From assembly GCA_900095095.1 (NCBI GenBank), contig FMBT01000314.1, positions 372,001 through 436,000 on the forward strand: a stretch of DNA of 64,000 bases, written 5' to 3'. The DNA is from Fragilariopsis cylindrus CCMP1102 (taxonomy: Eukaryota > Bacillariophyta > Bacillariophyceae > Bacillariales > Bacillariaceae). Every line of letters starts with the position of its first letter. Position 1 is the stretch's first letter. Shown here in pieces: positions 1,012-41,499 of the stretch. Position numbers and translations under genes: made by a program. Under the pieces are notes generated by a model that saw only the letters and a list, made by a program, of their open reading frames with translations, ran no database searches and had not been told where the DNA came from.

Positions 1012-1163
1012 GTCTAAAGTTATATTGTCGCTTAAGCAACAACACTGAGAGACACTAAACAAGACAAAGACAAATCGGTAGGCAAACAGCCAAACAACAC
1101 CGAATAGACAAAGACAACGGTAGGCAAACAGCCAAACAGCACCGTAAACAGACAACAAGCAAG

Positions 1164-2405
1164 ATGAAGGAAACAGAAGAAGCAATCGACTTAACTGCCA
1201 TCACCCGCAATGCCATTCAACCAACACTACTCAGCATCAACAGAGCAAAAAGAGAAATCAGTCGACAGTTACAAACACGGGTTTGTGCTGATCCAGCAAC
1301 ACATGATCATGGTCACTCCTATATTGTGTGTGACGCTACTGAATGGAGCAAGAAAAGACTGGTGACGTCGCAAATCACCCCACCAACCAACCCTGGAGAA
1401 TATGGTGGTACAACACACAACGCACATGAAATCCACAAAACTAAGCTACTAGCGTGGAAGCGATACAAAGAAGCACAAGCAGCAACAAAGAAAATGATCA
1501 TGCACGCTTTCAAGGACTATCACTTTTTGGAACTCCAAGATAACAATGGCGACATTGTCGGCTACACAGCCATTGAACTATTCCAACACCTCATGGACCA
1601 GTACGTCCGACCGGAGGATGTTGCGGATCAAGTAACAGCCCTACACAAGGTACTGGAACAACAATATGATCCAACTGAAGAACCTCAAGTTTATTACAAG
1701 TTAGTACAAGATGCAAGGAACACTCTGGAATCATTGAATGAATCAATCGATGAAGCAACACTCATCCGCCATGGACTCAATCAGTTCAAAGAGCACATCG
1801 ATTTGAAATTAGATATCAAGGAGTGGAAGAAACAGGATACAGTCAACAAAACATGGAAGAAGTTCAAATCTCACTTCACTAAGGCCATCAATGACAACAA
1901 GAATGATACTGGAACACTCAAAGCGCTTGGAATGGCCAATGCTGTCAAGGAGGAGATCAACAAAAACAAAGAAAACATGAAGGTATTCGCCCAAGCATCA
2001 ATGGAGGCCAACCAGAAGATCAACCTGCTGGAACAACACTGCGCAGCCCTAATGGCAGAAAGACAACCACCACCAAAACAAGCAACTGCTGTGGACGCCA
2101 AATCACAACAAATCCAAGTGTTAACTGACCGACTCAACCAACTTGAGCTCAACAAAGGAGGAGGTGGAGGCGGAGGCTATCGCGCTCTCGGAAGCAATGC
2201 ATTCCCCAAGAATGGAAAGGACGGCACTAGGACATGCAGAAGATGGTCCAACGATGAATACTGTTGGACATGTGGCTTCGATATCAAACACAACAGCATG
2301 ACTTGCAAGTACATCAAGGATGAAGCAGCCCACAAGAAAGAGGCAACAGCGACCAATACCATGGGAGGATCCACTCGAAACTTGCATTTACGATCTAACT
2401 TGTGA
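1164..2405 (+). CDS. Copia Gag-like part
   Basis: Frame of 413 residues just inside the 5' LTR. It is a hydrophilic, helix-rich Gag-like protein with a glycine run near residue 335 and, near the C-terminus, a zinc-knuckle-like C-x2-C-x5-H-x4-C (CWTCGFDIKHNSMTC). The knuckle would bind nucleic acid in the particle. It is part of the element at 736-6754. Confidence 0.75.
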   Translation: MKETEEAIDLTAITRNAIQPTLLSINRAKREISRQLQTRVCADPATHDHGHSYIVCDATEWSKKRLVTSQITPPTNPGEYGGTTHNAHEIHKTKLLAWKRYKEAQAATKKMIMHAFKDYHFLELQDNNGDIVGYTAIELFQHLMDQYVRPEDVADQVTALHKVLEQQYDPTEEPQVYYKLVQDARNTLESLNESIDEATLIRHGLNQFKEHIDLKLDIKEWKKQDTVNKTWKKFKSHFTKAINDNKNDTGTLKALGMANAVKEEINKNKENMKVFAQASMEANQKINLLEQHCAALMAERQPPPKQATAVDAKSQQIQVLTDRLNQLELNKGGGGGGGYRALGSNAFPKNGKDGTRTCRRWSNDEYCWTCGFDIKHNSMTCKYIKDEAAHKKEATATNTMGGSTRNLHLRSNL

Positions 2406-3083
2406 TGTGGTTGGAGGAATAACAGTATAAATGAAATAGAACCAAATAAAAATATAAATGAACCTATTAACCCAATTTCATACTGTTATTCTTCGAGCAA
2501 AACCTATACCAAACTAGCAGCAATTGTAGAAGATGAAGAGTACACCAATGCAGTAGCAGATTCTGGAGCCACAGGACATTTCTTTCCAAATGAAGATGAC
2601 AAGAAGAACACCCATGAAGAAATAAAAGTGATTTGCGCCAACAAGCAAACAATGAATTCAGTTGCAACAACAAAATTAGATATTCCGGAATTATCTGACA
2701 AGGCAAAAACAGCCTTCCACTTTAATGAAATGGATACACCACTGCTCTCTATTCCAGTATTGGCAGACGATGGTTGTAAAATTGAATTAACAGAAGACAA
2801 CATTGTGGTAACAAAAAATAATAAGATAATATTAAAAGGAATTAGAGATAAAACATCAACACTGTGGATGATACCAATCAAACATTGTGAGAAAGCAAGA
2901 ATATTAGCACAACAACTTCCACCACTACCAAGCCATGCAGCGAACAGCGCGTATCATCAACCAACCATAGCAAAATTAATGGCATATCACAATGCATAGA
3001 TTGGATCACTACCAGTCAAAACACTATGCAATGCCATTGATAATGATTGGTTAACATCATTTCCAGGATTAACTAGCGCAGCA

Positions 3084-6000
3084 GTGAGGAGACACCTACC
3101 AAAATCAATATCAACAACAATGGGCCATCTGCGCATGATTAGAAAAGGAATTAGGTCCACCACAAAGCCAACAATTAGTGAAATAATGAATGAAGAATTA
3201 GATCCAGAACCAGTGTTACCACCACCCATACGCATCACCAACAGACAGCATACTGTGGCAGTGGATACAATACCATTTGAAGATTTGAAAGGGATAATAG
3301 CAACAGATCTCCCTGGAAGATTTCCAACGACCTCAGCTCAAGGAAATGCCTATGTCCTAGTTATGTATGATTATGATTCAAATACAATCAATGCAGTAGC
3401 AATCAAGAACAGAACAACAGCATCGTTAGTCAAAGGTTACAACGAATTGTTTGAAGACCTGAAGAAAGCTGGAATCAATCCAGTACTCCACCGGTTAGAT
3501 AATGAAACTTCAAAGGAATTGATATTAGAGATAGAGAAGAAAGGATTAGACTACCAAATCGCATCCCCAGGTGATCATCGTCTTAATCATGCTGAAAGAG
3601 CCATCCAAACATTCAAAAACCATTTCATTGCAGTGCTATATGGATGTGACAGTACGTTCCCAGCAAAGCAATGGGATCGTATCATTAAGCAAGCAGTTAT
3701 GACATTGAATATGTGCAGGCCTTCCCGAATCAATCCAAAATTATCTGCATACCAACAAGTATGGGGAAACTTTGACTTCAACAAGACACCACTGGCTCCA
3801 CCTGGATGCAAAGTAGTGGTACATGAAAGAGCAATGGAAAGGGGAGCATGGGCATGTCATGGAGTAGTAGGTTACTACATAGGACCAGCAATGAAGCACT
3901 ACAGGAACTACATCAGTTACATCCCTGAAACAAAAGGAATTCGAACAACCAACACGATTGAATTCTTTCCAGAAAAAGTAGACATGCCAACAACAGCAAC
4001 AACAGACCGCTTAGCAAGAGCTGCTGAAGACCTGGCTGAGATACTACAAGCACCACACCCAGCAACTCCATTCCTACAACAAGGCACAGTCATCAACGAC
4101 GCAATGGAGCAATTAAAGAAAATATTTACACCACCAACTAGAATGGAAACAGCAATGGCTGCACCAATTCCAAGGGTGTTAGAAACTGCTGTAGCAGCTC
4201 CAAGGGTGGGTGTAAACAACAACAACAACAGTAATCATTCTCCAAGGGTGCCAGTAACAACAACAACAACAACAGATCGGTTACAACGAGTACTAAACAG
4301 ATTAGAAGCTAAAACTGTGCCAAATAGTGAACGGTCCAGTAGCAAAAGAACTAAATCAGTACGATTTCCAGATAACTGCGAAGGACCCAGTGCATTAAGG
4401 ACTAAATTATCGCGAATTGCAGAAGAAATATTACCACATCCAATCGGTACTAAGATTAGAAGATCATTCAAAAATAACAATCATATCTCCAAAAAGAACA
4501 AGCTAAATGGTACTATTACATCGTACGACAATGACAGAGAGTACTACATGATAGAATATGATGATGGTGATTCGGAGGAGCTAAGGCACAAGACAGTCGA
4601 AAAGTATATCATTACAGCCAATACAGAAATGGACCAAATGAAAAGATTAACACGATCAAGCCTACAAGCCAAGTCTGCGAATCACAAAAGAGAAGCAATG
4701 AAGATGGCATTCGACGCGTTCACTGATTCAAACCTACCACTACACCATGCAATGCCAGTATTCGATGAAGTAACAAAAAAGATGCTGGAATATCGACACC
4801 TAATCAATCACCCAGATCCGGAAATAAGAAAACAGTGGCAATTATCTGGTGCTAATGAATTTGGAAGGACCATGCAAGGAGTAGGTAAGACAAGAAAAGA
4901 AGAAGATCGAATAGAAGGAACCGATACAATGCACTTGATTCACAAGAAAGACATCCCAAAGAACAAGAAGATCACCTATGCCAGATTTGTCAGTGAAATC
5001 AGACTACAGAAAGCAGAGATCCATCGAACAAGAATGACAGCAGGAGGTGACCGACTAGACGACTATGAAGGCAAGACAAGCACTGAAACTGCAGGATTAG
5101 AAACAATCAAGATTCACATCAACAGCACCATCTCAAGAGCGAAACTAGGAGCAAGATACTTAGGTATTGATATTGGAAATATGTACTTGAACACCAAGCT
5201 ACTATCACCAGAGTATATGAGAATCCACAGTGACCTAATTCCAGATGAGATCAAGCAGGAGTACAACACTGAAGCCTACACTGACGAAAATGGATACGTC
5301 TACATGGAAATAACAGGTGCAATATATGGACTAGCACAATCAGGATACCTAGCAAACCAAGATCTAATCAAGAACCTCGCACCATACGGATACCATCCAG
5401 TGAAAAGAACTCCAGGTTTGTGGGAACATGAAACAAGAAAGACGACATTCACACTAGTAGTGGATGATTTTGGTGTACAATACTTCAACAAAGATGATGC
5501 AGATCACTTAATCAATGCAATCAAAGCCAATTATCCAGTCAAAGTTGATTGGACCGGATCCAAATATATTGGAATTGATCTGGATTGGAATTATGAAAAA
5601 GGAGAGGTAATATTATCAATGAAAGGTTATGTGATCAAAGCACTAAAAGAATTCCAACATAAGAAACCAACCAAACCATTTGATGCACCAGCCAAATTTC
5701 ACCAACCAGAATTTGGACAAAAAGTACAGTATGAAAGACAAGATATATCAGAAAAACTATCACCAAAGCAAATAGAGACAATACAGAAAGTATGTGGAAA
5801 ATTTCTATATACATGTCGAGGAATTGATGGGACCATGCATCATACACTAAATGAATTATGCATTGCAGCAACAAAAGGAACACAAGAAACACAAGATGCA
5901 CTAGAATACTTCCTAAACTACTGTGCCACTCATCCAGAAGCAAAGATTATCTACAGAGCAAGTGACATGATATTAACAGTCGACAGCGATGCAGCCTACC

Positions 6001-6638
6001 AAGTAGCACCAAAATCAAGAAGCAGAGCATCAGGATACCACTATCTAGGAGACATGGATGGATTACTGTTCAATGGAGCAATTTTCATCTTAGCAAAGGT
6101 CATCAAAGCAGTAATGCAATCAGCAGCTGAAGCAGAATGTGGCGCCTTGTACATGAATGCAAAAGAAGTGATGCCAATGAGGACAACATTAGAAGAATTA
6201 AAACATCCACAACCACCAACACCAATGCGAACAGACAACAGCACAGCAGATGGGATAATGAACAAAACAGTTAAACAGAAAGCATCAAAATCAATGGACA
6301 TGCGATTTTACTTTGTACAAGACAGAGTAGAACAGAAACAACTGAAAGTTTTTTGGGCGCCAGGAGAAATAAATCTAGCAGACTACCAATCAAAAGTACA
6401 ACCAACATCAGTACACAGAGCACTAAGACCAATATATCTATATGAAGAAGGCAAAAGCCCAGCTACACTGCAAGGGTGTGATGAGATACTCAAGTCACTA
6501 GCAAGTGGGGCGCGCAAACCCGTTACTAGAGAGTATTCAAATACAACAGCCCAGCCAGCCAGTTGCCACCAGGCGAGCTTGACCCATTCAAACCAACTGA
6601 ATATCAACCACTCATTAGCTAGAATCGCGTACGAGTGA
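3084..6638 (+). CDS. Copia polyprotein part: integrase, reverse transcriptase, RNase H
   Basis: Long frame holding the DDE integrase core (about 3250-3900), a proline-, asparagine- and threonine-rich linker, reverse transcriptase (about 4900-5650, with VVDDFG at its catalytic centre) and RNase H (about 5950-6400, with TVDSDAAY). The protease signature AVADSGATGHF lies just upstream at about 2550. The end of the frame runs into the 3' LTR. It is part of the element at 736-6754. Confidence 0.85.
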   Translation: MRRHLPKSISTTMGHLRMIRKGIRSTTKPTISEIMNEELDPEPVLPPPIRITNRQHTVAVDTIPFEDLKGIIATDLPGRFPTTSAQGNAYVLVMYDYDSNTINAVAIKNRTTASLVKGYNELFEDLKKAGINPVLHRLDNETSKELILEIEKKGLDYQIASPGDHRLNHAERAIQTFKNHFIAVLYGCDSTFPAKQWDRIIKQAVMTLNMCRPSRINPKLSAYQQVWGNFDFNKTPLAPPGCKVVVHERAMERGAWACHGVVGYYIGPAMKHYRNYISYIPETKGIRTTNTIEFFPEKVDMPTTATTDRLARAAEDLAEILQAPHPATPFLQQGTVINDAMEQLKKIFTPPTRMETAMAAPIPRVLETAVAAPRVGVNNNNNSNHSPRVPVTTTTTTDRLQRVLNRLEAKTVPNSERSSSKRTKSVRFPDNCEGPSALRTKLSRIAEEILPHPIGTKIRRSFKNNNHISKKNKLNGTITSYDNDREYYMIEYDDGDSEELRHKTVEKYIITANTEMDQMKRLTRSSLQAKSANHKREAMKMAFDAFTDSNLPLHHAMPVFDEVTKKMLEYRHLINHPDPEIRKQWQLSGANEFGRTMQGVGKTRKEEDRIEGTDTMHLIHKKDIPKNKKITYARFVSEIRLQKAEIHRTRMTAGGDRLDDYEGKTSTETAGLETIKIHINSTISRAKLGARYLGIDIGNMYLNTKLLSPEYMRIHSDLIPDEIKQEYNTEAYTDENGYVYMEITGAIYGLAQSGYLANQDLIKNLAPYGYHPVKRTPGLWEHETRKTTFTLVVDDFGVQYFNKDDADHLINAIKANYPVKVDWTGSKYIGIDLDWNYEKGEVILSMKGYVIKALKEFQHKKPTKPFDAPAKFHQPEFGQKVQYERQDISEKLSPKQIETIQKVCGKFLYTCRGIDGTMHHTLNELCIAATKGTQETQDALEYFLNYCATHPEAKIIYRASDMILTVDSDAAYQVAPKSRSRASGYHYLGDMDGLLFNGAIFILAKVIKAVMQSAAEAECGALYMNAKEVMPMRTTLEELKHPQPPTPMRTDNSTADGIMNKTVKQKASKSMDMRFYFVQDRVEQKQLKVFWAPGEINLADYQSKVQPTSVHRALRPIYLYEEGKSPATLQGCDEILKSLASGARKPVTREYSNTTAQPASCHQASLTHSNQLNINHSLARIAYE

Positions 6639-8837: not shown

Positions 8838-10081
8838 ATGATTTTGAGTCGTCCTCCTCCTCCTTCCGATAATAATAGTAGTACTGGCACGGCAACAACA
8901 AGGCCAAGAGATATGACACTATGTTCATCATACTATTATGAAAATGAAAATGAAGATATTGTGTTCGAAGGAAAGCTAGGAGATACCCTTGCTGCACACT
9001 TCCTTCCTTCACCAACACCAACGCCGACGCTATCATCATCATCATCAATGGAATGGAACAAAAACAAGAACAGCTCTGGTGTATCTAATGTTTTATCAAC
9101 TCGAACATCAAAGGTAAGTGGAAGAGAAAAGAGAGAGAGAGAGAGACATATAATGCGTGTGTGTATTTTCCGCCGTTCTCTTACCGTTCCTATTCCTCAT
9201 GTTAATTTCACATTCCACATCTCACTTTTCAGAAACTATCATTTCCAGAAACATTACATCGTATTCTTGACGATGTTGCCGATGGTAACGTGTGCATGAC
9301 GTCATCTTCAGCAGCTAGTGAAATGATTTCATGGGAAGAAATGGGTAAAGGATTTAGGATATATCAACCAAAACCATTTAATGAAATGATACTATCAAAA
9401 TACGCTAGACGTAAAACAAAATATCGATCCTTTCAACGTCAATTGAATATATATGGATTTAAATTGAATAGAAGATCTGGTATATATCATCATGAAAACT
9501 TCACAAGAGGTGATATCCGTTCATTGAAAAAGATTCGTCCAGCACCCAATAAGAATTATATCAACAATAGTCTTAGAAAAACTAGTAAGAATACCTACAA
9601 GAGCAGCTCCTCAAGATACTCTGCCGTTGCTGTTGAACAACGACGAGTACGAGAAAGAAGCATCGTTAGCAGCGAAGAAGATGGTGACTCAGCATCGTCC
9701 TCCTCATCAGCATCCTTTCCGTCAGTCGTATCATCAAACAACAAGGTCAACAAAACTACCTCCATCAGGAATAAATCCATCAAGAACATGCCGATCGGTT
9801 GCTTTTTTCCTCTCCCTTTGATGCGCAAATTGTCACGCAGTATAATCTCGTCGTCGCCATCACCTGAAGAAGCTTTTTCTGGTGGTATTGATTATAATAT
9901 CATGCCTATCGTTGCCGGTATCTATGATGATTGTCTCGAGGATATTGATGTTACGAATATCAGCAATATTATTGATATCGATACTACTACAAGTAATGCG
10001 AATGCAAAGAATACAGCAGTATACACAGTATTTGATGATCGTGATTTTTTATCAGATATAAGTGATATTCCAGTACTATAA
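8838..10081 (+). CDS. HSF-type DNA-binding protein
   Basis: Heat-shock-factor family regulator, expected in the nucleus and bound to DNA through a winged helix. Two exons, 8838-9113 and 9233-10081, are joined by a phase-0 intron (AAG|GTAAGT...TTTTCAG). The product is about 374 residues. The HSF domain covers about residues 95-185: FPETLHRILDDV, then ISWEEMGKGFRIYQP, then the recognition-helix region SFQRQLNIYGFKLNR. It starts almost exactly at exon 2. The rest is Ser/Asn-rich, with an acidic hydrophobic C-terminus that could activate transcription. No heptad oligomerisation domain is obvious. HSF genes are greatly expanded in diatoms, so a heat role should not be assumed. The start is the first in-frame ATG. 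Open sequence continues upstream to 8640 without an ATG, so the 5' end is uncertain. Confidence 0.88.
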
Positions 10082-15145: not shown

Positions 15146-17032
15146 ATGAATAATAGTAAAATAGAAGGACAATGTGATTTTTCCGAAACCAACGATTCCA
15201 TTGAAGAATACCACGGCAACATTAACGACAACAACGACGACAACAACGACGACGACGACGACCACTCTCCTTTTGGTGGTGGTGGTGGTGGAAACAAAAC
15301 TAGGACTATAAAGATGATCTATTATCTGCTACTAAAAGCAATGTTGAAGACGAAGATGATGATGATGATGATGACGATAGTTTCTACGATGATTGGGTAA
15401 CGGGTAGTTGGGGATGGATAAATAATCATAATGATCACAAGAACCATGACGATCACAATCACAATAGTGGCGTTGTCAATAATAACTATGATGATGAAGC
15501 TGGTATACTGCATAATAGTACTACTACTACTCGTCAACAAAAACGAAAACGGCATCATCATCATCATCGGAATGTGGATGATTTAATTCAGAAAGAAGAC
15601 AAAACTAACGACGACATGAATAATAAACCTTCCATCAAAAAAGAGGATCCTACAGTAGCTACTGACACTTCTGCTGCAGCTACTGCTGTTGATGATATTA
15701 TTATTATGAACGATTGGAAGAAATTAATTGCTGATATTGCTGTTGATTCTATTCGATCGCCATTGGATGAAGAAGAACAAGAAGAAGAAAATGGTCGTAT
15801 TATTATAAGTGCGAACAATAAAGATCAGCATCAGCATCAGCATCAGCATCAGCATCAGCATCAGCAAAATCAGCGCAGCAGCAGTACCACCACCAACAAC
15901 AACAACAACGAGGAGGAGGAGGAGGAGGAATCCTACGATTCTAGTGATGATGAGGCAGTCATACGAAGGATGCATAAAAGATTGAGAATAATAGTAGCAG
16001 CAAGTGGAGGAGAAAAAGAGAAAGAAGGACTGTTGAAGCAAAATAATAATGAGGAAAAGAAGAAGAATATAAGTATGAAACATCAGCAACATCAGCAGGA
16101 GGAGGAGGAGGAGGAGAGTACCATCGAAGACAATGAAAGAATAATGACAGTAGTAAGAAGATGAAACAACAAGAGCAACAACAACAACAACAAGATCAGC
16201 AACAAGATCAGCAACAACAGCAGCAACAACAGCACCACATCGCTGATCCAAATGAGAATGATGTTCTCTGTGGTCCTGGTGGACGCATCAACAGCCACGC
16301 TGGAAATGTGCAATTTAGAGATACCATTCACTCAAAGAAGAAAGAATATACAGCTCCATCCACAAAGAAACTAGAAAAAGCTCATATGCACTGGCATGTC
16401 AATGATATTCGTACTATGGACCCACCTGGACGATTCTTGAAGGAAGACAAAGGTACCGGATTATGGTTTGATATTGGTGACGTGAAGGCTATCAGGAAGA
16501 CTGGTCAAGCACTCCAGGAGGATGCTCCAGATATTAGTAATAACAACCACGAAGAATTGAATATGGTAGTATCACCAGAGACCAACTGATACTACAACAA
16601 CAGTTGCAGCAGTATCACCAGCAGTTCACAGCTATCAGCTACACAACGACATCAACAGCAATACCCGCAACATCAATACCAGCAACAACAATATCAATAT
16701 CAACATCAATATCTGCAACAAGTCAACAACTGCATGAATTACAATTATATGTCACTCCTCAACAGCAACAGCAGCAATTGAATCGTCTCCACAAGAATTA
16801 CAACTTCGTCACAGATTACAATTCGTCAATACAATTGCACAGCAGAACAGCAGCATCTTTTGGGAACAACAACAACACACAAAGCAATAGCTATGATTTT
16901 TTCGCCCCAACACAACAACAACAACAACGGGCATCGATTCAACTGCAGAAGCAACAGCTACAACAGCAGCAGCAGTTACAGCAGAATGCTTCATCATCAG
17001 TTGCAGCTATACCGTACCGCTACCTCTTTTAA
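15146..17032 (+). CDS. DUF6824-type diatom protein, frame-broken
   Basis: Coding sequence is clear but spread over three frames. It starts at ATG 15146 with an acidic, Asp/Asn-rich N-terminus. It continues through a His-rich and acidic region (about 15320-16150) with a (CAT CAG)n His-Gln run near 15830-15870. It then reaches the conserved domain at about 16240-16540: NDVLCGPGGRINSHAGNVQF, then DPPGRFLKEDKGTGLW, then IGDVKAIRKTGQALQEDAP. This matches the family I know as DUF6824, common in diatoms and of unknown function. A Gln/Tyr-rich tail continues to about 17032. The frame changes near 15300, 16150 and 16590 each equal one missing base. An 80-bp intron (16153-16232) would also bridge the second, but its acceptor side is CAG repeat with no pyrimidine tract. 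Confidence 0.6.
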
Positions 17033-18390: not shown

Positions 18391-18661
18391 ATCATACTGT
18401 ACTGCCTTCCTCTCATGTCACACTCTTTCGAAGTATATAATCAATACCGAGATTTTTGCTGAAAATTTAATTAGGGTACTTCTGAGAAGTAATTGAAGGA
18501 AAATTTGTTCCCTGCGAAGCACACTTTTATTGCGTGTTCTGTTGCGTGCTCTCTCGTCGTCGCGTTCACACTTCAACTTAATTCACGAAGAAGAATTTAA
18601 TAACCATTTATTTTATTTATGTACTTTTACCAACCAAACAAAAAATCTGCGACGGAATTAT
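18391..18661. promoter_or_regulatory. Divergent intergenic region, Cys-rich gene and tyrosinase
   Basis: The two genes are head to head with about 140-270 bp between their likely starts, so they probably share a bidirectional promoter. No specific box could be assigned. Confidence 0.35.
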
Positions 18662-20453
18662 ATGCGTAATAATATATATCACAAAACGACAATCATAAGA
18701 ATGAACGGGAATCGGACGAATGTACTACTAGATCAAGTTGAGGGTGGAGGCAAGGCGGCATATGATTCGTCCTCGTCGTTACATCCTGCTGGATCCAACT
18801 TTGCATGTAATGATGAAAGCACCGCCGACTTATTGGTAGACGACGATACCAGACAACAACGAGCGGGAGTAGTCAGAGTTAGACGTGAATGGGATCATCT
18901 TAGTAATTATGACAGAGAATTATATTTAGATGCAATAGAAACAGCAATCGAACGTGGAATACATCATCAATTTGCTCGGTTCCATCATGATTCCATATCT
19001 GAAATACAAGCACATGATACATGTTTGTTCATGATTTGGCATAGAGTATATTTATTAGCATATGAAAATATGTTACGATCATTAGAACCAAGATTTGCAT
19101 GCTTAACGATGCCATTTTGGGATATTTATCGTGATTATTCAAAACAAGTCTCAACCACCAATGTATGTCGATCCTATGCAACATGCGCTAAAATTATTAA
19201 TGACTTGGGTGGAATTGTACAAAATGATGACTTTAATGAATTAACATACTTTGGTACAAAAGTGGATGGATTATGGCATTTCAAATCACCAGTACAAAAT
19301 TTACGTGATGATCGTAATAATATTGGTTGATCCGATATGATATGTGGTTTGATCCGATACCACATGAAGTGACTATTTTAAATACAACTAATATTGTCGA
19401 TCTTTTTGAAAGTAGTATAGAGTCGAATTTTGGGAAAAATTGCATCACGGAATTCACGATGCTATTCATGATACGATTGGTGGATTTATGAGGACCAATG
19501 CTAGTCCAATAGATCCAATTTTTATGCCTTGGCATAGTACTATGGATTTATTTGACTATATATGGGAAACCTGTTACTATAATAGTAATGATATTGATAA
19601 TGATAATATTGAGATAGCTACTAACGAGAACGAGAACGGAGTAATACGTGCACTTATACAAAGGAAGCTAGAAATTCTTTCCCAGTATTTCTGTTCTTGA
19701 TAAAGATGACGAAATCTATATGAAACTTAATAACAAACTGATATTCGTGACGATCCACTTATTGGTCGATACTTTTCTTTTCAAGCTGACGACATGAAGT
19801 TTATTAATTTTTTGAATATTCAAAATTTGAATCAACATCAACGATTCCGATATGCAGACATTCCCAAACAATTTATTGACGTGCTCGCGAACAATACACA
19901 ACTTTGTCCGAAGGGTCTGAGTTCAATAGTAAATAATGACGGCAACAAAAAAGAAGAAAATGCTATTCCAGTGAGAGGACCAACAACTTTCTCCAGCTCA
20001 CAGCTAGAATCTTTCAAAATCGATTGGATCGAACAAGCTCAAGTCTATTATAATTCAAAAGCAGCAGCAAATAATGATACTTCTTCTACTTCGACCACCA
20101 TTCAGCAGCAAATTGACATCGACAATAATAATATCACATTCCTTCAATGCCTTCTTGATGCAATGGATTACGATACTATAGAGCGCTGGGCAATAGATAG
20201 TGATACATTTTTGATACAGGTCGTAAAGAACAAGCGTTACAATAAACATCCATCTTGTCGTGATTTTCTTTCTACGGCTCGAGGAGCAACTCCTGTAGTA
20301 GATCTAAATCAGAACAACACATCGGCAAATACGCTAAATTCCAACATGACGATTAGCAGCAGTAGCGCTATTCTCCAAGGAGCACCACAGCCTTCGTTTT
20401 GGTTTGCTATTCTGCTGATACAGGTTACAATTAAGCTTATATGCCATGATTGA
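18662..20453 (+). CDS. Tyrosinase-like copper enzyme, frame-broken
   Basis: Common central domain of tyrosinases, the type-3 copper enzymes that oxidise phenols. The CuA side is visible as IHHQFARFHHD and then FMIWHRVYLLAYENML, followed by LTMPFWD (about 18955-19125). The CuB side is HHGIHDAIHDTIGGFM, then SPIDPIFMPWHSTMDLFDY (about 19440-19570). The usual second-shell HH before the last helix reads WH here. The C-terminus ends in a hydrophobic segment (FWFAILLIQVTIKLI), so the enzyme may be membrane-anchored. Frame changes near 19320, 19440, 19690 and 19735 interrupt it; three equal one lost base (for example in AAAAA at 19435). The region is open upstream to 18530 without an ATG; 18662 is the first in-frame ATG and the true N-terminus is uncertain. 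Confidence 0.7.
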
Positions 20454-24989: not shown

Positions 24990-27356
24990 GGTACTTGCTT
25001 CCTGTACCACTCCACTTTCTGGCATTCTAACCCATCCTAGCATGTATAAAGTCCAAATCAGATGGTATAATCTGAGCTTAATCTACATAGGGTGGATAGC
25101 TGGACCGGATTTTGGGGCGCTAGGTATGTGCTCTTTGCACTGGAAGGTGGTAAAGGATGTGATACATCCTAGGACATGGGAAAATGGCCCATTTGGGGGG
25201 GGGGGAGGGGGGTATGTGACCTAGTATACACTCAAAGGGACAAATAGTCCCAAAGTAAGCACATGGGGCTGACCATATACACCAAAGGGAATATAAACTT
25301 GGCAAGCTATGGGCAGGACCATGCTGATGTGGGCGCTAAAGGGGGAAAACCTGTTTTTGGGCCTAAATGACTTTTGGGGGGGCTTAGCACACCCTGATAC
25401 CTTCCTAACCTCCCTAGAGCCCTAAGCAATAGTTGGGCCTTGTACACATAGGTATAATGTTGAGCTCCATATAATCTTTCAAGGTTATTAGGTCTGTATT
25501 GATGGTGCATCACAGCCTTGATTACTACACGCGCGCGCACAAGTTTGGCTCTTGGAGAAATTGTGTGTTTTAATAGCGGTGGGTTTTGACCCATGACACC
25601 CCAAATATATGTATGACTACCTAAAACAATGATATGATCCAATACCTTTATGAGTTTAGGTTGATGCCTAGCTATTCTATTTGGGACTCAGTATACCTGG
25701 TATGGGTGCGGTAATAACTCAAATATTTTTGCAATGTGTGCATTTTGGGCTATTTTATGTCGTCTATTCTATTGTTCCCCACCCCACCCCACCTTCTTGG
25801 TGTATTTTGACCATATACATATATGGAAGGTATTTGGGTGTTGAAACCATGGTCTGATTCCGTTTTTTGATGTTGTGGCAGCCTATTTCTTAATGGTACT
25901 TTTGGGCATGGAAATATGACATGTTGGCCAAAATGCAATGTTTGTGTTCTGGAGGCAAGCATAAGGTAAGTATGAGGGACTATGACCCTTGGTTCATCCT
26001 CTATGGGTATAGGATGGATGACTGGGTTGTATTTTGGTGCACCATGCTGGTTCTAGAACCTAAGGAGAAGTTATTCATCTTACCATTCAAAAAGTTGTTT
26101 AATATTTCAATAACCAAACCAAACTCCACTGGAGAATTTGTGAGATAAAAATGATACCAATCAGGATCACTTCAGTCAAGTGATGATGAACCACCAGGAA
26201 TGGTAGGAGGGAAGCACAATGTTCTAGTACTGCACTATGTGGATGTTTGTGCACCTATGCTACCCATCTGATGTTGTCCTCTGTAACTAATTGTTTCAAA
26301 TGAGATATTTTGTTGTTCATTATTTCTGATCCAAAATCATGTTGTTTGTGTGCCTGCCATAATAGCAAAATAAATTTAATTCCACAACCATAAGGAGATA
26401 AAAGCAGTAGGAGGCACAGTAGTAGGAGGCACACACAATGTTCCAGTACACTATGTGGATGTTTGTGCACCCGGCCCATCTGGTATTGTTGTCTGCAATC
26501 CTTTCAAATGAGCTATTTTGTGTTCATTTCTTATCCAAAATCTCATTATTTGTGTGCCTGCCATAAAAGCAAAATAAATTTAATTCCACAACCATAGGAA
26601 CAAAAAACTTGTAGGAGGCAGACACAATGTTCTAGTACACTATGTTGATGCAAGTGCACCTGACTCATCTTGTGTTGTCCTATGGAACCCTTTCAAATGA
26701 GATATTTTGTGGTTCATTTCTTATCCAAAATCTCATTATTTGGGTGCCTACCACATTAGCAGAACGAATTTGTTTCTGCAACCACAGAAACAAAAAACTT
26801 GTAGGAGGTAGACACAATGTTCTAGTACATTATGCAGAGGCTAGTGCACCTGACTCATCTTGTGTTATCCTTTGCAACCCTTTCAAATGAGATATTTTGT
26901 GGTTCATTTTGATCCAAAATCTCATTATTTGGGTGCCTACCACATTAGCAGAACGAATTTGTTTCTGCAACCACAGGAACAAAAAATTTCAAGGAGGTAA
27001 ACATAATGTTCTAGTACATTATGCAGAGGCTAGTGCACCCGCCCCAGTAGGTGTTATCCTTTGCAACCCTTTCAAATGAGATATTTTGTGGATCATTTTG
27101 ATCAAAAATCTCATTATCTGGGTGCCTACCACATTAGCAAAACGAATTTTTTTTCTGCAGCCACAGGAACAAAAAATTTCAAGGAGGTAAACATAATGTT
27201 CTAGTACACTATGCAGAGGCTAGTGCACCCGCCCCAGTAGGTGTTATCCTTTGCAACACTTTCAAATGAGATTTGTTGTTGTGTGGTGTACGTGTACATA
27301 CATTTTAAATCCTTAAAATGTGTGCTGTGTGTGAGCCTACATTGTGAGATACCAGT
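24990..27356 (+). repeat. 2.35-kb dispersed repeat, copy 1
   Basis: Direct copy of 39149-41499, with about 85-90 percent identity by eye. Both start GGTACTTGCT and end GTGAGATACCAGT. The first half is single-copy sequence. The second half (from about 26200) is a tandem array of roughly 190-bp units containing AATGTTCTAGTACA and CCTTTCAAATGAGATATTTT. Near the end is a near-perfect hairpin (ACATTTTAA ATCC TTAAAATGT). No convincing coding capacity. No target duplication or long terminal inverted repeat found. A non-autonomous transposon, possibly Helitron-like because of the internal tandem array and 3' hairpin, is an inference only. Confidence 0.75.
26200..27290 (+). repeat. Tandem array inside repeat copy 1
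   Basis: About five to six units of roughly 190 bp. Each carries GGAACAAAAAA.TT..AGGAGG, AATGTTCTAGTACA, GTGCACC and ATCTCATTAT.TGGGTGCC. The last units are most alike, which suggests recent unit turnover at that end. Confidence 0.75.
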
Positions 27357-27632: not shown

Positions 27633-27918
27633 ATCGTAAGATGGTCCAGTTCTTGACGCTGCTTTCTTCCTTAGTCGTTTTGTGTTGATGATGTGTTGCT
27701 TTTTTTGTGTGGATGATTCTTGGCTACTGTAACGACAAAAACCCAACCAAAAGGAGAAGTGAAGTGAAAAGAGAAGGGAACCCTAACATTAGAGTTCATC
27801 GTACATATCTTCCATCTTCCATCTCAAGTCAAATACGGTAGTGAAAGTGAAAAAGCAAAGCATAGTGAAAGAAAGGAATTGAGCAGAAGTTGTGCAAAAG
27901 CAAAGTAAAAGTAAAAGC

Positions 27919-30900
27919 ATGACGACAACAAGAACAAGATCGGCATCGAAACCCAGCGACAAGGCGAATAATAATGAACAGCAACATCAGCAACACGCAT
28001 CATCATCATCAACGTCCTTACCATCATCATCACGTAAAAGACAATTGGAAGAAGATAATCAAGGAGATCAAGATAATAATGGCAGTAGCACTGCTGCTGC
28101 TGCTGCTGCTAACATTGGTACTAAAACCGATTGGAATGCTATGTCTATGTACAAGAAGGTGGCTTTAGAAAGAAATTCCGATTCAAGAATAATTGATAAA
28201 GAAAATAATGTCAATAATGCTGTTGCTGCTACTAAAGAGATAATAATAATAAATACTACTACTACTACTGCTGTTGCTGCTACTGCTGTGGGTATTGCAA
28301 ATGTCGAAAACGACGACGACGACAACAACAACAATGACATCAGCGATGATATTGTTGATGATGATTCGATTTATTCATTCGATTCATTGCCATCATCACC
28401 TCCTCCTCGTAAAAAGGCGGCTGTCACCAATGATGAAGAATTTATCACATCATCTTCTTCTTCTACTCCTCTTCCATCAGCACCATTGCCAGAAATGATA
28501 ACACGACATATAACAACTCCCGCCATAATCACCACAACAACGGCGTTAACACCTTCTATCGCAACTCCTACCCCTCCTGCTGCTACTGCGGATGGGACTA
28601 TTGCTGCTGTTGCTGCCGTTGCTACTGTTACAACAACACCTGCAGCGGCTGCTACTACTAATCTTGCTGCTGCTGTTTCTGCAGTCAATACATCATCTCC
28701 TACTACGAATCATAATAATCATAATCATCCTACTTCTTCCTGTATGATCGATTTAACGTCACCTGAAACTGTTTCCAATAATATTCACTACCTGAGGATC
28801 CAGAAGTTTCTATAGTTGATCCCACCTCCCACCGCCACTACCATCCAACGACAATAATATGGACATTGACAATAATAACCATGATGGCAGTAATAAAAAC
28901 AAGGCAGAGGACGATGACGACGATGATATTAAAGTTATGTCATCCACAACAATTAATCCGAATATAGCATATCCACATATACGTCCATTATGTGGTGTTT
29001 ATAGCTTTGATGGCGGCAGCGGTGATGATAAAGGAACAGAAGATAGTAATAAAGTAAAGTTTTGTGAAAATGTTATTGTGTTGTTTGTGATATACCTGCA
29101 AAGGATTGTACACAATGGAATGATCATTCTATAATAGAAACGAGGAGTAAATCGGCTGATGGTGGGGGAAGAAGATGAAATTTTATTAGAATCACCAACA
29201 ACAACAAGAAGAAATTCTACTCTTCGTAGTAGTAGTAGTAGCCATCATGGTCGTGATTTATTCCCTAATGTACAAGATCCTATTGAATTTAGAAGGAGTT
29301 AGAATCTATGTTTGGTGCAGGTCATGATGATGCATTTTTTGAAAACATAATTAGTGGACGACAGCGACGAATACATGAAGGATTAGAACGTGACAATAGC
29401 AACAGAAGAATAATAGTGGCAATAATGGTAACAGTGATCCTAATAATAGATATATAGAAGCATCTAAATTGCGTATAGTAGACGTTCTGGCAAAAAAATT
29501 ACATACAGTTCTACATTTTTCGGAAGGTGGTCGAATACCATCAGAAGAAGATAACGATGCTGATATTATTCAAGCTAAGAGCGAACAACAAAAGATAATA
29601 AGAAACAATCTGTAACGACGATAATAAAAAAGAATAGAATGGAAGGTGATATAGCACAATTAGGATTGCATTCGTCGTTTTTTGTGGAAGGTGTAAAAAT
29701 TGGTTGGCCATTCCCTGCAATTATGTTACCTCAAAGACAAATGGCAATACATATCATTAAGGGATTGAAAAGGAAATTACATGTTGTATTAGAATCACCA
29801 ACAGGTACAGGGAAATCGGTTGCTATTTTATGTAGTGTATTAGCTTGGCAACGATATCATGCACAAAATTTCCGAATGGTGATCACGATGACTATGATGC
29901 TATTGATGTTGACAATGAAAACGGTGATGAAAGCAGTAGGACGAGAGCAGGTCCTAAGATTATCTATTGTTCTCGTACACATTCACAAGTAACACAAATG
30001 GTTGCAAGTTTAAAAAAGACACCGTATCGTCCTAAAATGACTGTTTTAGGTAGTAGAGATAGAATGTGTATACATAAACAACTTACTGGTAAAAATAAGA
30101 AGAAGAATAAAACACCGATTAATATTGCATGTCAAAGCCGTAAAAGTAATACAGAGTCAGAACGTAAACGCCGATTACAAGATAAAATTGCAATCCCGCC
30201 ATACGATGATGATTCACCTACAGCACCAGAGGAGAATCGGAATGGTGATGATCGTGGTGAAAGCAGTATATACGTCCCTGGCGATGGAAATGGCGATGGT
30301 GATGAAAATGAAGATGGTCAACGGGCACCAAGGCAACCACCAGCAACGTGCCCACATTATCGTCAACTACATCGGAACGGACGACTAGAATGATAGCTAA
30401 ACAATTTGTTGGTGCTAATCCTCTTGAGAGAAATTCGTCATCATGTGGATGCGGTTCCGCTGACGGAGCTGGTATTGGAGGAGAAGAATCTGCATTCGGT
30501 GTACACGATTTGGAAGACTTGGTACGGTTTGGAAAAAATCCACACAAAGAACATAATATTGCTATATATCGTGGTGAGGATGGTAAATTTGGATTTACGG
30601 TTAGCGACAACACTACCATCACCAATGATGGTAATACTTCTCCAAATATTATTGCAAAAGGTTGTCATGTTGGTTCATTGAAAGAAGGTGGTGCAGCTAC
30701 ATATGAGTCAAGATTACAAATTGGTGATAAATTACTACAAATCAATGGGAAGGATGCCCGATCATGGAACAAAGAACGTGTATTCGAAACATTGAAGTAT
30801 ATGCCAAAAGATGACCCTGCTCGATTAACTGTACTCCGTGCCAATGCCGATACAAGTCCCGAGGATGAATTACTTGATTCGTTGATGATGACGAACGATG

Positions 30901-33598
30901 AGGATGGTGATGGACCGGAAGAACCCTACTCGGAACATTCCGTCTGTCCGTATTATCTTTCTCGTGCCATCCAACAACATGCCGAGTTAACTTTTGCTCC
31001 CTATAATTATATTTTAGATCCAAACATACGCAAGGCTATGAATATAAGCTTAAAAAATGCCGTTGTCATCCTTGATGAGGCACACAATGTCGAATCGACA
31101 TTATGTGAAAGTGGTTCCGGCAAATATGGCGAATTTGATCTATATTCTTTATCAATTGCGTTAACGAGTTATTCACGTCGTAGTGAAAAGACGGGAAATG
31201 TCACTTTGATAACAAGAGGAATAGATGTCGATACAGCCAAGGTTGCACACGATTTGTTACTGTTTGTGGAAAGGATAATTTTTCATTTACAAAAAGAAAA
31301 GACAAGATTCGAAAACGGTTCAGGACGGCAAAAATTGGAAAGAGACTACAGGAAATTTCATAACACCCCAGACGATCATGGAGAAGAAATTTCCTACGAT
31401 GGTCCAACGGGGTGGGGTCTTAGAGGCAAACCTGTTGGATGCAGTACATTTCTTGAAAGACTGGGTATTACGAAGGATGAATGCGCGAATCTACTCGAAC
31501 TTGCACAAAGTATGGAACAGGAGATGTTTGGTGGTAAACAAGATGGTCAAGTTGAAGTAACTGGACAAGGTGATTCCTCCAACGTTTTGACAATATTGAC
31601 TGAGCTGTTGTCGAAATTGATGACTGGTAGTTTTTAAGACTATTTGCACTTTTCACACTCTTCGACGTGGATACGACGTGCCATCAAATTGTCCCTAATT
31701 AAAATATGAAATGATTTTTATTTTATTGTACGCAATCTTTTATTTCGCCTCTTTTTTCTTCTTCTTTCCTTTTCCCACAGCGGTCGAACATCCGGAACAT
31801 TTTTACATTGCTTGCGTCGCACAAGGTAGGACTAAGAACGTGTGCTGTCTACTGCCGTCAAAGTCTGTTATTTTTTCTCAAGCTCTTCATCACCGCGTAT
31901 CACAACTAACATGAATCGTTTTTCATTTTTCGTCTTGTTTCCTCACCATCCTCTTCGATACAATTTTCTCTATCAGCCAATGGGAATTTAGACCATGCAT
32001 TTAATATTGGCGAGGAAGACAATGGTGCAAGATCTAGACGTTGGAAGAAAAAACCTCGTAAACTTCCATTGATAAGTCCCCGAACTCCCAACTCACCGAA
32101 TGCTTTTCTTCCTGCTTGCCAACACGTTGGGTGTCTCTCTGCCGGAATGATCGAGCTTGGTGATGGAGTCAGCCACGGGGACTACTGCAACGGAGATACA
32201 CCACCATGGGAATGCCATTTGGTGCTAAAGCTGCTATCACCGGGCCTCTTACTGAGAGAAATTTCAGATGAGTGTCGTACTGTTATATTGGCTAGTGGCT
32301 CTCTTGCTCCTATACCAAGTCTATGTGCCGAGTTGAATCTATTTGGAAAAGAGTCATCATCGTCATCGTCACAGGCGTCGTCTCAATGCCCCAAAAGCAG
32401 TACTTGTAGTGGCAAAAAACTCTCATATTCTTCGTCACAGCCAGCATCCTTGTCTCAAACTCCGGTGAATGCCAACAGCAAAATAGAGAAGAAGTTTGTT
32501 GATAGACTTCAAACAACACCTAAACCATTAGAAGCCAATCACGTTGTGAACCTACAAAAGCAACTACTTGCTGTAAGTATTGGCAATTTTCCGGATGGAG
32601 AGAAATTGACAGTGAAGTATGATAATTACAAGAACCCTTCTTTCTTTCCAAAGTTGGGATATGCTATTTCTTCTGTTATTGAAAGCATACCTCAAGGTGG
32701 TTGTTTAATATTCTTTCCATCCTATTCATTTCTTAATAAGTGTATTACGTGTTGGAATCCTATCGGTCCGGAACGATATTCAAGATTTACTGAAACCGCT
32801 CCCGACGTTTGGACTCGATTGCTTCGAAGCAAAGGAAAGCTGATCGTTGAACCAACAAAGAGCCAAGAAGAATTCGAATTGGCACGAGATGAATACAAGA
32901 ATACAATTAAAGAGACTGGAAGTTGTATTTTGCTTGCGGTATTTCGTGGGAAAATGTCCGAGGGGATAAGTTTTAATGACGACAATGCTCGGGCTGTGTT
33001 GTGTATCGGCATGCCGTATCCTAACTGGCACGACCGTGGCGTCAAAGCCAAACAGGCTTACAATGACGAACAACGGAAATTACGAAAGAAAACTTGTCTT
33101 CTTCCTGGATCGGAATTTTACTCGCAACAAGCCCACCGAGCGATAGCCCAAGCGCTTGGACGGTGTATCCGACACGGTGCTGATTACGGAACGGTCGTGT
33201 TGATGGATTCTCGTCATTGTGATGATGGATCACCTATTTTGAATCAAGATGGTATTTGTAGTGCTCATAGGAATCTTCCAAAATGGATGCGAGGTTCTGT
33301 GCGGACATTATCAATGCGTCCCAATTTCGGTGTTGGTAATGCACCAATTTTAGGTGCCTACGGTGGTCTACGAAGAGAAATGAGCCAATTTTTTGTCCAA
33401 GCTCCGGTTGCTGCACAAGCGGTTTTAGATAAATGGAAGATCGATTTGAAAAACATAAAAGAAAAGTCAACGGCATCACAAGGACAACACGTCTTTAATA
33501 GAAAAACAGGTGCATGGACTACCTCAACGCCGAACACACAAAATTCTAACGATGAGGACAAGAAACCAGTTTTAAAAAAGGGGGAGATACAGATATGA
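27919..33598 (+). CDS. FANCJ: FANCJ/BRIP1-type DNA helicase with inserted PDZ domain
   Basis: XPD-like superfamily 2 Fe-S helicase, a nuclear DNA-repair enzyme that unwinds 5'->3'. After a long low-complexity Ser/Asn/Ala N-terminus come Walker A (ESPTGTGKS, 29790), motif Ia ([11 protein letters not shown]), Fe-S cysteines (MCIHKQL, ATCPHY, VCPYY), [17 protein letters not shown] ([11 protein letters not shown], 31060), [31 protein letters not shown] and motif VI ([14 protein letters not shown]). The last motifs match FANCJ better than RTEL1. A PDZ domain (30555-30845: [22 protein letters not shown]) lies between VRFGK and CPYY. Introns 31627-31780 and 31826-31976 are well supported and leave a 45-bp exon. 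About nine frame changes occur between 28790 and 30400, nearly all equal to one lost base; the catalytic motifs are intact. ATG 27919 is the first in frame. Confidence 0.85.
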
Positions 33599-33695: not shown

Positions 33696-35067
33696 TTAAG
33701 TACCGCCGCCGCCGCCGTCCTTCTTATCCTTTCTTTTTCGCTTTTTCGGATTTGTAATTTTTGTCACAATTGTCTCGGTGCTGCCTACATCATTGTTATT
33801 GGTGCTGTCATCATCATTGTTATCGAATGCAACCACAGCCACCGTTGGAGATAGTAGTCTTTGTAAAACATTAGGTTCTCTCCGTATCAAATAATATACA
33901 CAGTCTAAATGAATATCTTCGTCCATAGCTGCCGTTATTAATGCCTCCACAATATGTAATGGTGTACAGTCTGAATAACGTGTTAGAGTATCTTCTATGC
34001 CCATCATCACTTGTTCGTGTCCAAATTGTTTACAAGCACGTTGGAATGATGTATTCATATAGGAAAAATGCTTTATTTGGAATAGAAGATTGATTCCTTT
34101 CTTATGAGGAAAGTATTTAATTCCAGCATCAAATACCGATAGGAACGCTTGAAATGATTTGTAAAACGATACGGAATGGAGTGGAACGGAATCATTTTTA
34201 CATGGCATTAATGCGGTCGGATCCCAATCGACTAAAAATCGAAATCGCCTTTCTGCAAAACAAAAAGAATTATGTTGCGCACATAATTGGTTCAATAGAC
34301 GATACTTGTGAATGTCTTCTTTCTTTAGAAGACCCATTTTTCTTAATCGTATCAAAACCTGTAAAAATATATTCTCATTATATTCGTGTTCTTCCCGATC
34401 ACCTACTTTGATTGTGTCAGTACACATGAGGTCCTGCAGAACATTTCCATTGCACGAATCTTGACATAACAATCCTCCACGATATTGTTCCTCAAACAGC
34501 CCAGTTCTATTGCTACTTTAGCAAAGACAGGGATGAATGATACAGCCTTCGCGTTGCACCTAGAAAAATTATTAGATCGTACGCATGCGATTAGTTGGAA
34601 TGGATAGAAACCTTCGACGACATCCTCCTCAAGTTCGCCGTGTTCGTTGTAGCAATCCCATACAATTTCTTTTCTTCTTGTTAGAACTTCCGGAAAGAAC
34701 CTAACAGTAGTTTCAACTTCAGCTTCTGTATCACGATTACTATCTAAACCTTTATAATCCTCGGTACCAACCTTGAGGTCACAAATCATAGCATGAATAT
34801 CATTTACAATTTTATCTAGGAATTCTTCTGTTAATATATCAATTTTATTTCTGGTACGGAACGAATATGTTTCTTGCCGTTCAAGGACCGACATTAATCT
34901 TAGTCGTCTCGTCGTCCTCCGTGCATTATTGCCATCATCATCCTCATTCTCATATCCTCATCAACGGCTTGTACGTGCTGATGTACTTGTTGTTCTCACT
35001 GGCGCTTGCTGCTGCTGCTGCTGCTGCTCTCATCATCATCTTCGTTCACAATATTGTTGTCATCCAT
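33696..35067 (-). CDS. Ankyrin-like diatom multigene-family protein, frame-broken
   Basis: Reverse-strand gene resembling a large family of repeat proteins I associate with pennate diatoms. Typical pieces are FYPFQLIACVRSNNFSRCN, VSFIPVFAKVAIELG, GLLCQDSCNGNVLQDLM, LQVLIRLRKMGLLKKEDI, RRFRFLVDWDPTALM, CTPLHIVEALITAA and HLDCVYYLIRREPNVLQ. The TPLH and PLHSVS pieces suggest degenerate ankyrin-like helices. The C-terminus is basic (KKRKRKDKKD), possibly a nuclear signal. One frame change near 34480 equals one missing base. The N-terminus (acidic, serine run, putative ATG 35067) is also in another frame, so the start is uncertain. Function unknown. Its 3' end lies about 100 bp from the convergent helicase gene. 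Confidence 0.6.
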
Positions 35068-39148: not shown

Positions 39149-41499
39149 GGTACTTGCTACCTACCTGTACCACTCCACTTTCTGGTATTCTAACCCATCC
39201 TAGCATGTATGTATAAAGTCCCAATCAGATGGTATGATCTGAGCTTAATATGATAGGGTGGATACCTGGACCGGACTTTGGGGTGCTAGGTATGTTTTCT
39301 TCACACTGGAAGGTAGTAAAGGGTGTGATGCAGCCTAGGACATGGGAAAATGGCCCATTGGGAGGGGGGGGGGGGGGGGGGTATGTGACCTAGCACAAAC
39401 TCAAAAAGGTAAAATGTCCCAAACTAAGCACATGGGGTTGACCATATACACCAAAAGGAATATAAACTTGGCAAGCTATGGGCAGGACCATGCTTATGTG
39501 GGCGCTAAAGGGGGAAACCTGTTTTGGGGCCTGAATGACCATTTCTGGGGCTTAGCACACCCTGACACCTTCCTAACCTCCCTACAGCCCTAAGCAATAG
39601 TTGTATCTTGTACCCATAGGAGGTATAATGTTGTTCTCCATACAATCTTTCAAGGTTATTAGGTCTGTATTGATGGTGCATCAGGGCCTTGATTACATGC
39701 GCACTTGGTACTTAGAGAAATTGACTGTTTTAATAGCGGTTGATTTTGACCAGTAACACCCCAAATGAATGTATGGTTACCTAGAACAATGATAGAATCC
39801 AGAACCTTATGAATTATATTGATGCCTAGCTATTTTATTTGGGACTCAGCATATCTGGTATGGACGCAGTAGCATCTCAAATATTATTGCAATGTGTGCA
39901 TTTTGGGCCATTTTATATCTATTCTATTGTTCCCGGCCCTGCCACACCATCAATATGGCAGATGTTCCAGATTTTGTTGGTGTATTTTTGACTATATACA
40001 TATATGGAAGGTATCTGGATGTTCAAACCATGGTCCAAATCCTTTTTTTTGATGTTTTGGCAGCCTATTTCTGAATGGTACTTTTGGGCATGGAAATATG
40101 ACATGTTGGCCAAAATGCAATGTTTGTGTTCTGGAGGCAAGCATAAGGTAAGTATGAGGGACTATGACCCTTGGTTCATCCTCTATGAATATAGGACGAA
40201 TGACTGTGTGGTATTTTGGTGCACCATGCTAGTTCTAGAATTTAAGAAGAAGTTATTAAACTCCACTGGAGAATTTGTGAGATAAAAATGATACCAATCA
40301 GAATTACTTTAGTCAAGTGATGAAGAACCACCAGGGATGGTAGGAGGGAAACACAATGTTCTAGTACACTATATGTGGATGTTGGTGCACCCGACCCATC
40401 TGGTGTTGTCCTCTGTAACCATTTCAAATGAGATATTTTGTGGTTCATTTTGATCAACAATCTCTTTTTTGTGTGCCTACCACATTAGCAAAACGATTTT
40501 CTTCCCCCCCAACCACATGAACAAAAAACTTGTAGGAGGCTAAAGCAATGTTCTAATACACTATGGGGATAGTTGTGTACCTGACCCATCTGGTGTTGTC
40601 CTATGGAACCCTTTCAAATGAGATATTTTGTGGTTCATTTTGATCAAAAATCTCTTTTTTGTGTGCCTACATTAGCAAAACAAATCCCCCCCCCCCCCCA
40701 CATTAGCAAAACAAATTTTATTCCACAACCACATGAACAAAAAACTTGGAGGAGGCAAATATAATGTTCTAATACATTATGAGGATGTTTGTGCACCTGA
40801 CCCATCTGGTGTTGTCCTATTGAACCCTTTCAATTGAGATTTTGTGTGGTTTATTTTGATCAAAAACTTGTTATTTGTGTGCCTACCACATTAGCAAAAT
40901 GAATTTTATTCCGCAACCAGAGGAACAAAAAAGTTGTGGGAGGCAAACACAATGTTCTAGTACACCATATGGATGCTAGTTCACCTGACTCATCTGGTGT
41001 TGTACTCTGCAACCCTTTCAAATGAGATATGTTGTGGTTCATTTTGATCAAAAATCTTGTTGTTTTTGTGCCTACTACTTTAGCAAAACAAATCTCCCCC
41101 CCCCCCCCCCCCACATTAGCAAAACAAATTTTATTCCGCAACCACATGAACAAAAAACTTGGAGGAGGCAAATATAATGTTCTAATACATTATGTGGATG
41201 TTTGTGCACCTGACCCATCTGTTGAGATTTTTTGTGGTTCATTCTGATCAACAATCTCTTTTTTGTGTGCCTACCACATTAGCAAAACGATTTTCTTCCC
41301 CCCCAACCACATGAACAAAAAACTTGTAGGAGGCTAAAGCAATGTTCTAATACACTATGGGGATAGTTGTGTACCTGACCCATCTGGTGTTGTCCTATGG
41401 AACCCTTTCAAATGAGATATTTTGTTGTGTGTACGCATACATTTTAAATCCTTAAAATGTGTGCTGTGTGTAAGCCTACGTATATTGTGAGATACCAGT
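39149..41499 (+). repeat. 2.35-kb dispersed repeat, copy 2
   Basis: Same orientation and plan as 24990-27356: unique first half, then a tandem array from about 40290, then the same terminal hairpin (ACATTTTAA ATCC TTAAAATGT) and GAGATACCAGT end. Array units here carry poly-C interruptions (about 40687-40699 and 41096-41112) not present in copy 1. A block near 40440-40620 is repeated almost exactly at 41230-41410, showing recent turnover inside the array. Confidence 0.75.

Follow-up and report, generated by a model that had tools for sequence, protein, structure and literature searches.

A 64,000-nucleotide stretch of the diatom Fragilariopsis cylindrus CCMP1102 (assembly GCA_900095095.1, contig FMBT01000314.1, positions 372,001 to 436,000; hereafter the window) holds, on its plus strand, a helicase gene with a PDZ domain inside its iron-sulphur (Fe-S) region. 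Judged by its sequence, the gene is a FANCJ/BRIP1-type Fe-S DNA helicase. The DEAD_2 and Helicase_C_2 core is present, with the DEAH box and motif VI that a first-pass annotation of this DNA had called intact both found in place (Table 1), and a Pfam DEAD_2 match stands in the same translation as the PDZ domain. For all four core pieces searched, the best solved-structure match was FANCJ (Fanconi anemia group J protein, 9ej9_A). For the piece with motif Ia and the first part of the Fe-S region it was the sole match, in an alignment that reaches the first Fe-S cysteine only. Over motifs IV to VI, the expectation value (E) was 4.6e-38 for FANCJ versus 7.4e-20 for Rad3 and 9.8e-20 for CHL1. NCBIfam assigned each of the four pieces to the rad3 family (TIGR00604), in every case under the whole-protein cut-off. 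DDX11/Chl1 and XPD/Rad3 share the fold family and the same junction before the CPYF/CPYY cysteine, but their scores are weaker and they gave no match for the motif Ia/Fe-S piece. The gene is closer to FANCJ than to XPD or CHL1, a comparison that excludes RTEL1, whose helicase is absent from the solved-structure matches.

Candidates for the four Fe-S cysteines (Cys1 to Cys4) lie at codons 30067, 30130, 30349 and 30945, the first three and the fourth in different frames. The Cys2 and Cys3 candidates stand 73 codons apart across a low-complexity acidic stretch. Positions 69-100 of the Pfam DEAD_2 profile, which fall between its two matched pieces, are unmatched.

The PDZ domain and its place in the helicase

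A single open reading frame of 441 codons (30312-31637, plus strand) runs from the Fe-S region through the PDZ domain and an acidic linker to VCPYY and the DEAH box. VRFGKNPHK ends at 30548, VCPYY starts at 30942, and both share one uninterrupted frame with the PDZ domain between them. The domain matched PF00595 at E 4e-11; its score of 43.6 bits exceeds the cut-off of 23.2, and the match covers profile positions 2-78 of 81, which is near full length. Of the 24 translations from the window that were compared with Pfam, no other gave a PDZ match. A complete PDZ domain in frame between these two motifs, as first proposed, is thus borne out. Like the canonical PDZ domains of InaD-like protein, PSD-95 and Dishevelled, it has a GxGF-type carboxylate-binding loop (GKFGF at 30582, whose FGF aligns with the LGF loop of the PSD-95 (Disks large homolog 4) PDZ) and a GDKLLQING signature; unlike them, it lies within a DNA helicase. 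Compared by itself with solved structures, the PDZ part matched 67 distinct sequences with E values of 0.001 or less. Among the best 60 of these 67, the top matches were InaD-like protein (3.1e-11) and PSD-95 (3.4e-11), values that sum several PDZ copies, and the best single-PDZ chain was synaptojanin-2-binding protein (4.4e-6).

Deleting the insert and joining its flanks gave a query that aligned with FANCJ 335-399 (E 2e-18, with a one-residue gap), CHL1 172-239 (E 2.8e-10) and XPD (8ebt) 173-240 (E 4.2e-9). Across the 14 solved sequences matched, of which four were printed as alignments, the length of this stretch differs from that of the query by at most 3 residues, the archaeal XPDs being 3 residues longer. 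Since the joined flanks align with all three helicases, the insertion point is the site named by the first-pass annotation, and the insert amounts to about 131 residues just before the fourth Fe-S cysteine. The location had therefore been given correctly and the length, put at about 125 residues, somewhat too low, on the basis of edges (Table 1) that are a chosen cut and could shift by a few residues. The insert stops one residue short of the fourth cysteine, which occupies chain position 350 in the FANCJ alignments. The chain numbering of 9ej9 is that of human FANCJ: Pro47 of Walker A and Ala349 before the fourth cysteine both fit positions given in the available text of PMC4204437. In human FANCJ, according to the same text, the substitution A349P disturbs the Fe-S cluster, and ATP-driven translocation is no longer coupled to unwinding. 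This mutation, beside the loop, was found in Fanconi anaemia (PMC4204437). On the minus strand, an open reading frame of 148 codons (30218-30664) overlaps the insert.

Table 1. Parts of the helicase gene and of the segment inserted in it (window coordinates)
Feature	Position	Strand	Basis
Probable disordered N-terminal extension, low complexity	27883-28784	+	Coding-frame path; presumed link to helicase across frame changes
N-terminal stretch, six short abutting frame segments	28785-29586	+	Coding-frame path
Start of helicase core, Walker A at 29804, frame +2	29587-29874	+	FANCJ E 1.9e-11
Motif Ia (SRTHSQ, 29971) and Fe-S cysteine candidates 1-3, frame +1	29875-30354	+	DEAD_2 E 1.2e-13; FANCJ E 1.1e-6
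Rest of Fe-S region, frame 0	30355-30548	+	Coding-frame path; joined-flank alignment
Insertion without counterpart in FANCJ, CHL1 or XPD, 131 residues	30549-30941	+	Joined-flank alignment
PDZ domain core	30558-30827	+	PF00595 E 4e-11; solved PDZ matches
Acidic linker, PDZ to Fe-S cysteine	30843-30941	+	Sequence, composition
Fe-S cysteine 4 (VCPYY, codon 30945), DEAH box at 31074, to exon end	30942-31626	+	DEAD_2 E 3.6e-23; FANCJ E 1.4e-14
Intron 1, GTAGTT...CCCACAG, phases agree	31627-31780	+	GT-AG
Small exon	31781-31825	+	Splice-site analysis
Intron 2, GTAGGA...TATCAG, phases in agreement, that of the donor determined by hand	31826-31976	+	GT-AG
C-terminal exon: motif III ASGSLAP at 32291, motif V GKMSEG at 32948, motif VI at 33149; tail KKGEIQI (I-x-I)	31977-33598	+	Helicase_C_2 E 4.2e-41; FANCJ E 8.7e-40

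A Pfam scan of the N-terminal extension returned no match. A SUMO-interacting-motif-like IDLTSPE lies at 28747 (plus strand) in this low-complexity N-terminal stretch of the gene. Further on, a zinc-finger or UBZ reading of a Cys-rich piece at 29068-29175 was rejected; the sole Pfam hit there was CitX, at E 0.0056 and below the cut-off.

Evidence on translation and splicing of the insert

The insert is probably translated as part of the helicase, given its coding-like codon usage and the want of any real-looking acceptor AG among the six tested on its 3' side. Codon scores were computed on the plus strand after training on seven stretches elsewhere in the window, with this gene excluded. Across the three segments that cover 30489-30803, the helicase frame scored between 0.25 and 0.39 bits per codon, and the other two plus-strand frames were negative. 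The rest of the exon scored -0.09 to 0.31, so that the PDZ segment falls within or above that range. The third-position guanine-plus-cytosine fraction is 0.24 in the PDZ segment and 0.24 just upstream, 0.44 in the linker that follows and 0.33 in the CPYY part.

These scores bear on the possibility, very unlikely in our view, that splicing takes the PDZ segment out as an in-frame intron or that certain isoforms alone retain it. Eighteen frame-keeping GT/AG pairs can be drawn (donors 30490-30620, acceptors 30780-30945), and to that extent the segment could be spliced out. However, the segment reads as coding, and all six acceptor AGs tested in the latter interval lack a pyrimidine-rich tract: pyrimidines make up 25-55% of the sequence before them, versus 95% and 70% at the two introns of the gene. 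An assembly chimera, in which PDZ-encoding DNA of another gene was joined to the helicase, would be compatible with the doubtful consensus quality just upstream, but is extremely unlikely. The domain is in frame, has linkers on both sides and lies inside one open reading frame of 441 codons, and a search of the 64-kilobase (kb) window found no second copy of the segment there.

Proposed function and known systems

We consider it fairly likely that the gene encodes a FANCJ-type helicase with a complete PDZ domain and linkers in the loop before Cys4, that this insert is translated, and that the PDZ domain folds independently and serves as a dock for a partner protein's C-terminal tail. The partner would thereby be held at the strand-splitting face of the helicase, or the helicase would be brought to its site of action. 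More speculatively, ligand binding might also tune the coupling between translocation and unwinding, because A349P, which changes the residue before Cys4 in human FANCJ, uncouples the two. If the reading is true, a protein-docking module can be accommodated in the hinge before Cys4 and may control it, and the gene would offer a direct test of ligand regulation of the Fe-S domain. In the solved XPD-family structures matched, the loop before Cys4 is short and varies little; here it would tolerate a whole binding domain.

That tolerance could also be all there is. The PDZ domain may be translated as a passenger, fixed by drift and with little effect on the helicase, an alternative that we hold to be rather unlikely but deserving of some weight. 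An apparent second long low-complexity expansion in the Fe-S region, between the Cys2 and Cys3 candidates, suggests that length change is tolerated there. On the other hand, the domain has kept near full-length Pfam coverage and its carboxylate-binding loop, and it sits at a site whose length is nearly constant across the 14 solved sequences and beside which a point change is disabling in human FANCJ (PMC4204437, as far as its available text goes).

A stronger version of docking by the PDZ domain is a peptide-gated helicase. In it the domain, placed next to the two residues that couple stepping to strand separation in human FANCJ, would toggle the enzyme between translocation and unwinding on binding the tail of a partner or the helicase's own C-terminus (EIQI); as part of the same reading, the domain could in these algae replace the CIP-box replisome docking of vertebrates. 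We regard this as unlikely. The helicase tail ends I-Q-I, which is class II-like, and about 7% of tails would end in this way by chance. With this expectation, and with a AAAAAAGGGGG run just before it, the EIQI tail was not counted as a class II PDZ ligand. The CIP box through which FANCJ reaches the replisome lies between its motifs IV and V, according to the available text of PMC10897178. Leu738 and Leu739 of human FANCJ align with Ala and Arg here, in a weak alignment in which a one-residue shift would put Leu on 738; on this alignment, the CIP-box route is not evidently kept.

Several observations weigh against the docking reading. Class I PDZ domains have His at the helix-B position, whereas alignment with solved PDZ domains puts Lys there in this one. 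Two single-sequence AlphaFold predictions, made with no alignment, gave predicted local distance difference test (pLDDT) values of 40.5 and 34.5, too low for any conclusion to be drawn about the fold. On the helicase side, Cys1 and Cys4 align with FANCJ, while Cys2 and Cys3 were placed by eye only. No relatives with or without the PDZ domain were found in viral and genome contigs by short exact peptide patterns, which reach close relatives only. Finally, a coding-frame path over the whole window, whose training set took in parts of this gene, places nine frame changes at 28785-30355 (at 28785, 28829, 29090, 29170, 29293, 29400, 29587, 29875 and 30355), the last of them between the Cys3 candidate and the PDZ domain. 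The whole protein is thus not encoded in one continuous reading frame and is unreadable from this sequence unless errors are assumed. The first-pass annotation was right about the type of helicase and about the frame and position of the PDZ insertion, but the upstream half of the gene is broken by frame changes in this sequence, and these were absent from that account.

The frame changes look like assembly indels that reflect uneven consensus quality. Were they real, the gene would be a decaying pseudogene and the PDZ architecture would no longer yield a working protein, an outcome that we judge improbable. Nine changes within 1.6 kb, two of them (29875 and 30355) inside the conserved helicase/Fe-S part, are what such decay could leave behind. 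Nonetheless, the helicase motifs in the broken upstream part are intact, and the listed segments of the path contain no stop codon, although the penalties of the path favour that and its training is as noted above. The next 3.2 kb are without frame change apart from the two canonical introns (none from 30355 to 31576 or from 31961 to 33582). Moreover, 20 of the 29 frame changes in the window lie outside the helicase gene, which fits uneven consensus quality, although a part of these 20 probably represents introns or stop bypass. Of the 20, 14 lie at 15.3-22.7 kb and 3 at 34.5-35.1 kb, and the window is free of them from 35.1 kb to its end at 64 kb. Introns were considered as the source of two of the changes and rejected. 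At 29875, a GT-AG pair can be drawn by eye, but it would delete FANCJ-matching residues just before motif Ia; at 30355, inspection by eye gave only very short introns, or ones that remove the Cys3 candidate.

The docking reading can be set beside several known systems. FANCJ/BRIP1 (9ej9) shares the helicase motifs, the candidate Fe-S cysteines, the best core matches and a contiguous alignment around the insertion point. It differs from the gene described here in the PDZ domain before Cys4, the long stretch between the Cys2 and Cys3 candidates and, where the alignment is weak, the CIP-box leucines; the C-terminal tail here is also short and apparently without an evident BRCA1-binding region. 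RTEL1, with its harmonin homology domains, is likewise a helicase of the XPD family in which an added fold serves recruitment. In the text available of PMC10853778, these modules appear to follow the helicase domain, whereas here the PDZ domain lies inside the Fe-S domain. The Chl1 insert is placed between Walker A and the Fe-S domain in the available parts of PMC8109800, unlike the present one. The same source describes a Timeless-binding motif in the DDX11 insert and a FANCJ insert that mediates MLH1 binding (PMC8109800). Inserts and boxes of XPD-family helicases are known docking sites, which would be in line with docking by a PDZ domain. DinG has extra Fe-S-domain insertions relative to YoaA (PMC9826845, available text), a precedent for length change in this domain; for a whole PDZ domain, no precedent was found in the literature searched.

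A PDZ-bearing FANCJ or XPD-family helicase did not appear among the titles listed by our literature searches, in agreement with the earlier statement that none was known; no eukaryotic sequence database was searched. DEAD_2, PDZ and Helicase_C_2 occur together in one paper, but in separate contexts in its available text (PMC9479744), and FANCJ and BRIP1 were both absent from a diatom meiosis-gene inventory when its text was searched for these terms (PMC4647503). A tblastn search against plasmids and phages gave no match. Among viral contigs, the matches L001 and L002 were set aside, as by eye and from their open reading frame lists they look like PhoH-type phage ATPases; the match in L003 covers 15 residues in the Walker A region. 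Taken together, the PDZ-bearing helicase is a real, unusual domain architecture that is probably translated and is represented by a single sequence of uneven quality.

Other features of the window

A convergent neighbour gene on the minus strand (33696-34957) has a frame change at 34513 and no Pfam family above the cut-off. Elsewhere in the window, a Copia-like retrotransposon occupies 1059-6638 (plus strand), with matches to RVT_2, SH3_retrovirus and rve that are all below the Pfam cut-offs. Its frame is open over 5.5 kb, interrupted only by two stops in frame (TGA, 2403-2405; TAG, 2997-2999). Inside the pol open reading frame of this element, the translation of 3000-6635 (plus strand) contains a PTM/DIR17-like Tudor domain (PF21743, E 3.6e-9, above the cut-off), possibly a chromatin-reading module carried by the retrotransposon.

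Two arrays of units of about 190 base pairs, at 26422-27279 and 40340-41093, lie about 13 kb apart and have the stretch CACCCGACCCATCTGGTGTT in common. On the minus strand, 59276-61801 encodes, after a fasciclin domain, six stretches of DUF285 (E 4.7e-103), for which the Pfam description is based on Mycoplasma. The introns mark the DNA as eukaryotic, and the HSF, DUF6824 and Copia-like genes, judged by what is known of these families, point to a diatom. The window has, on the plus strand, genes with HSF DNA-binding (9206-10078), DUF6824 (16137-16586) and Tyrosinase (18497-19327) domains.

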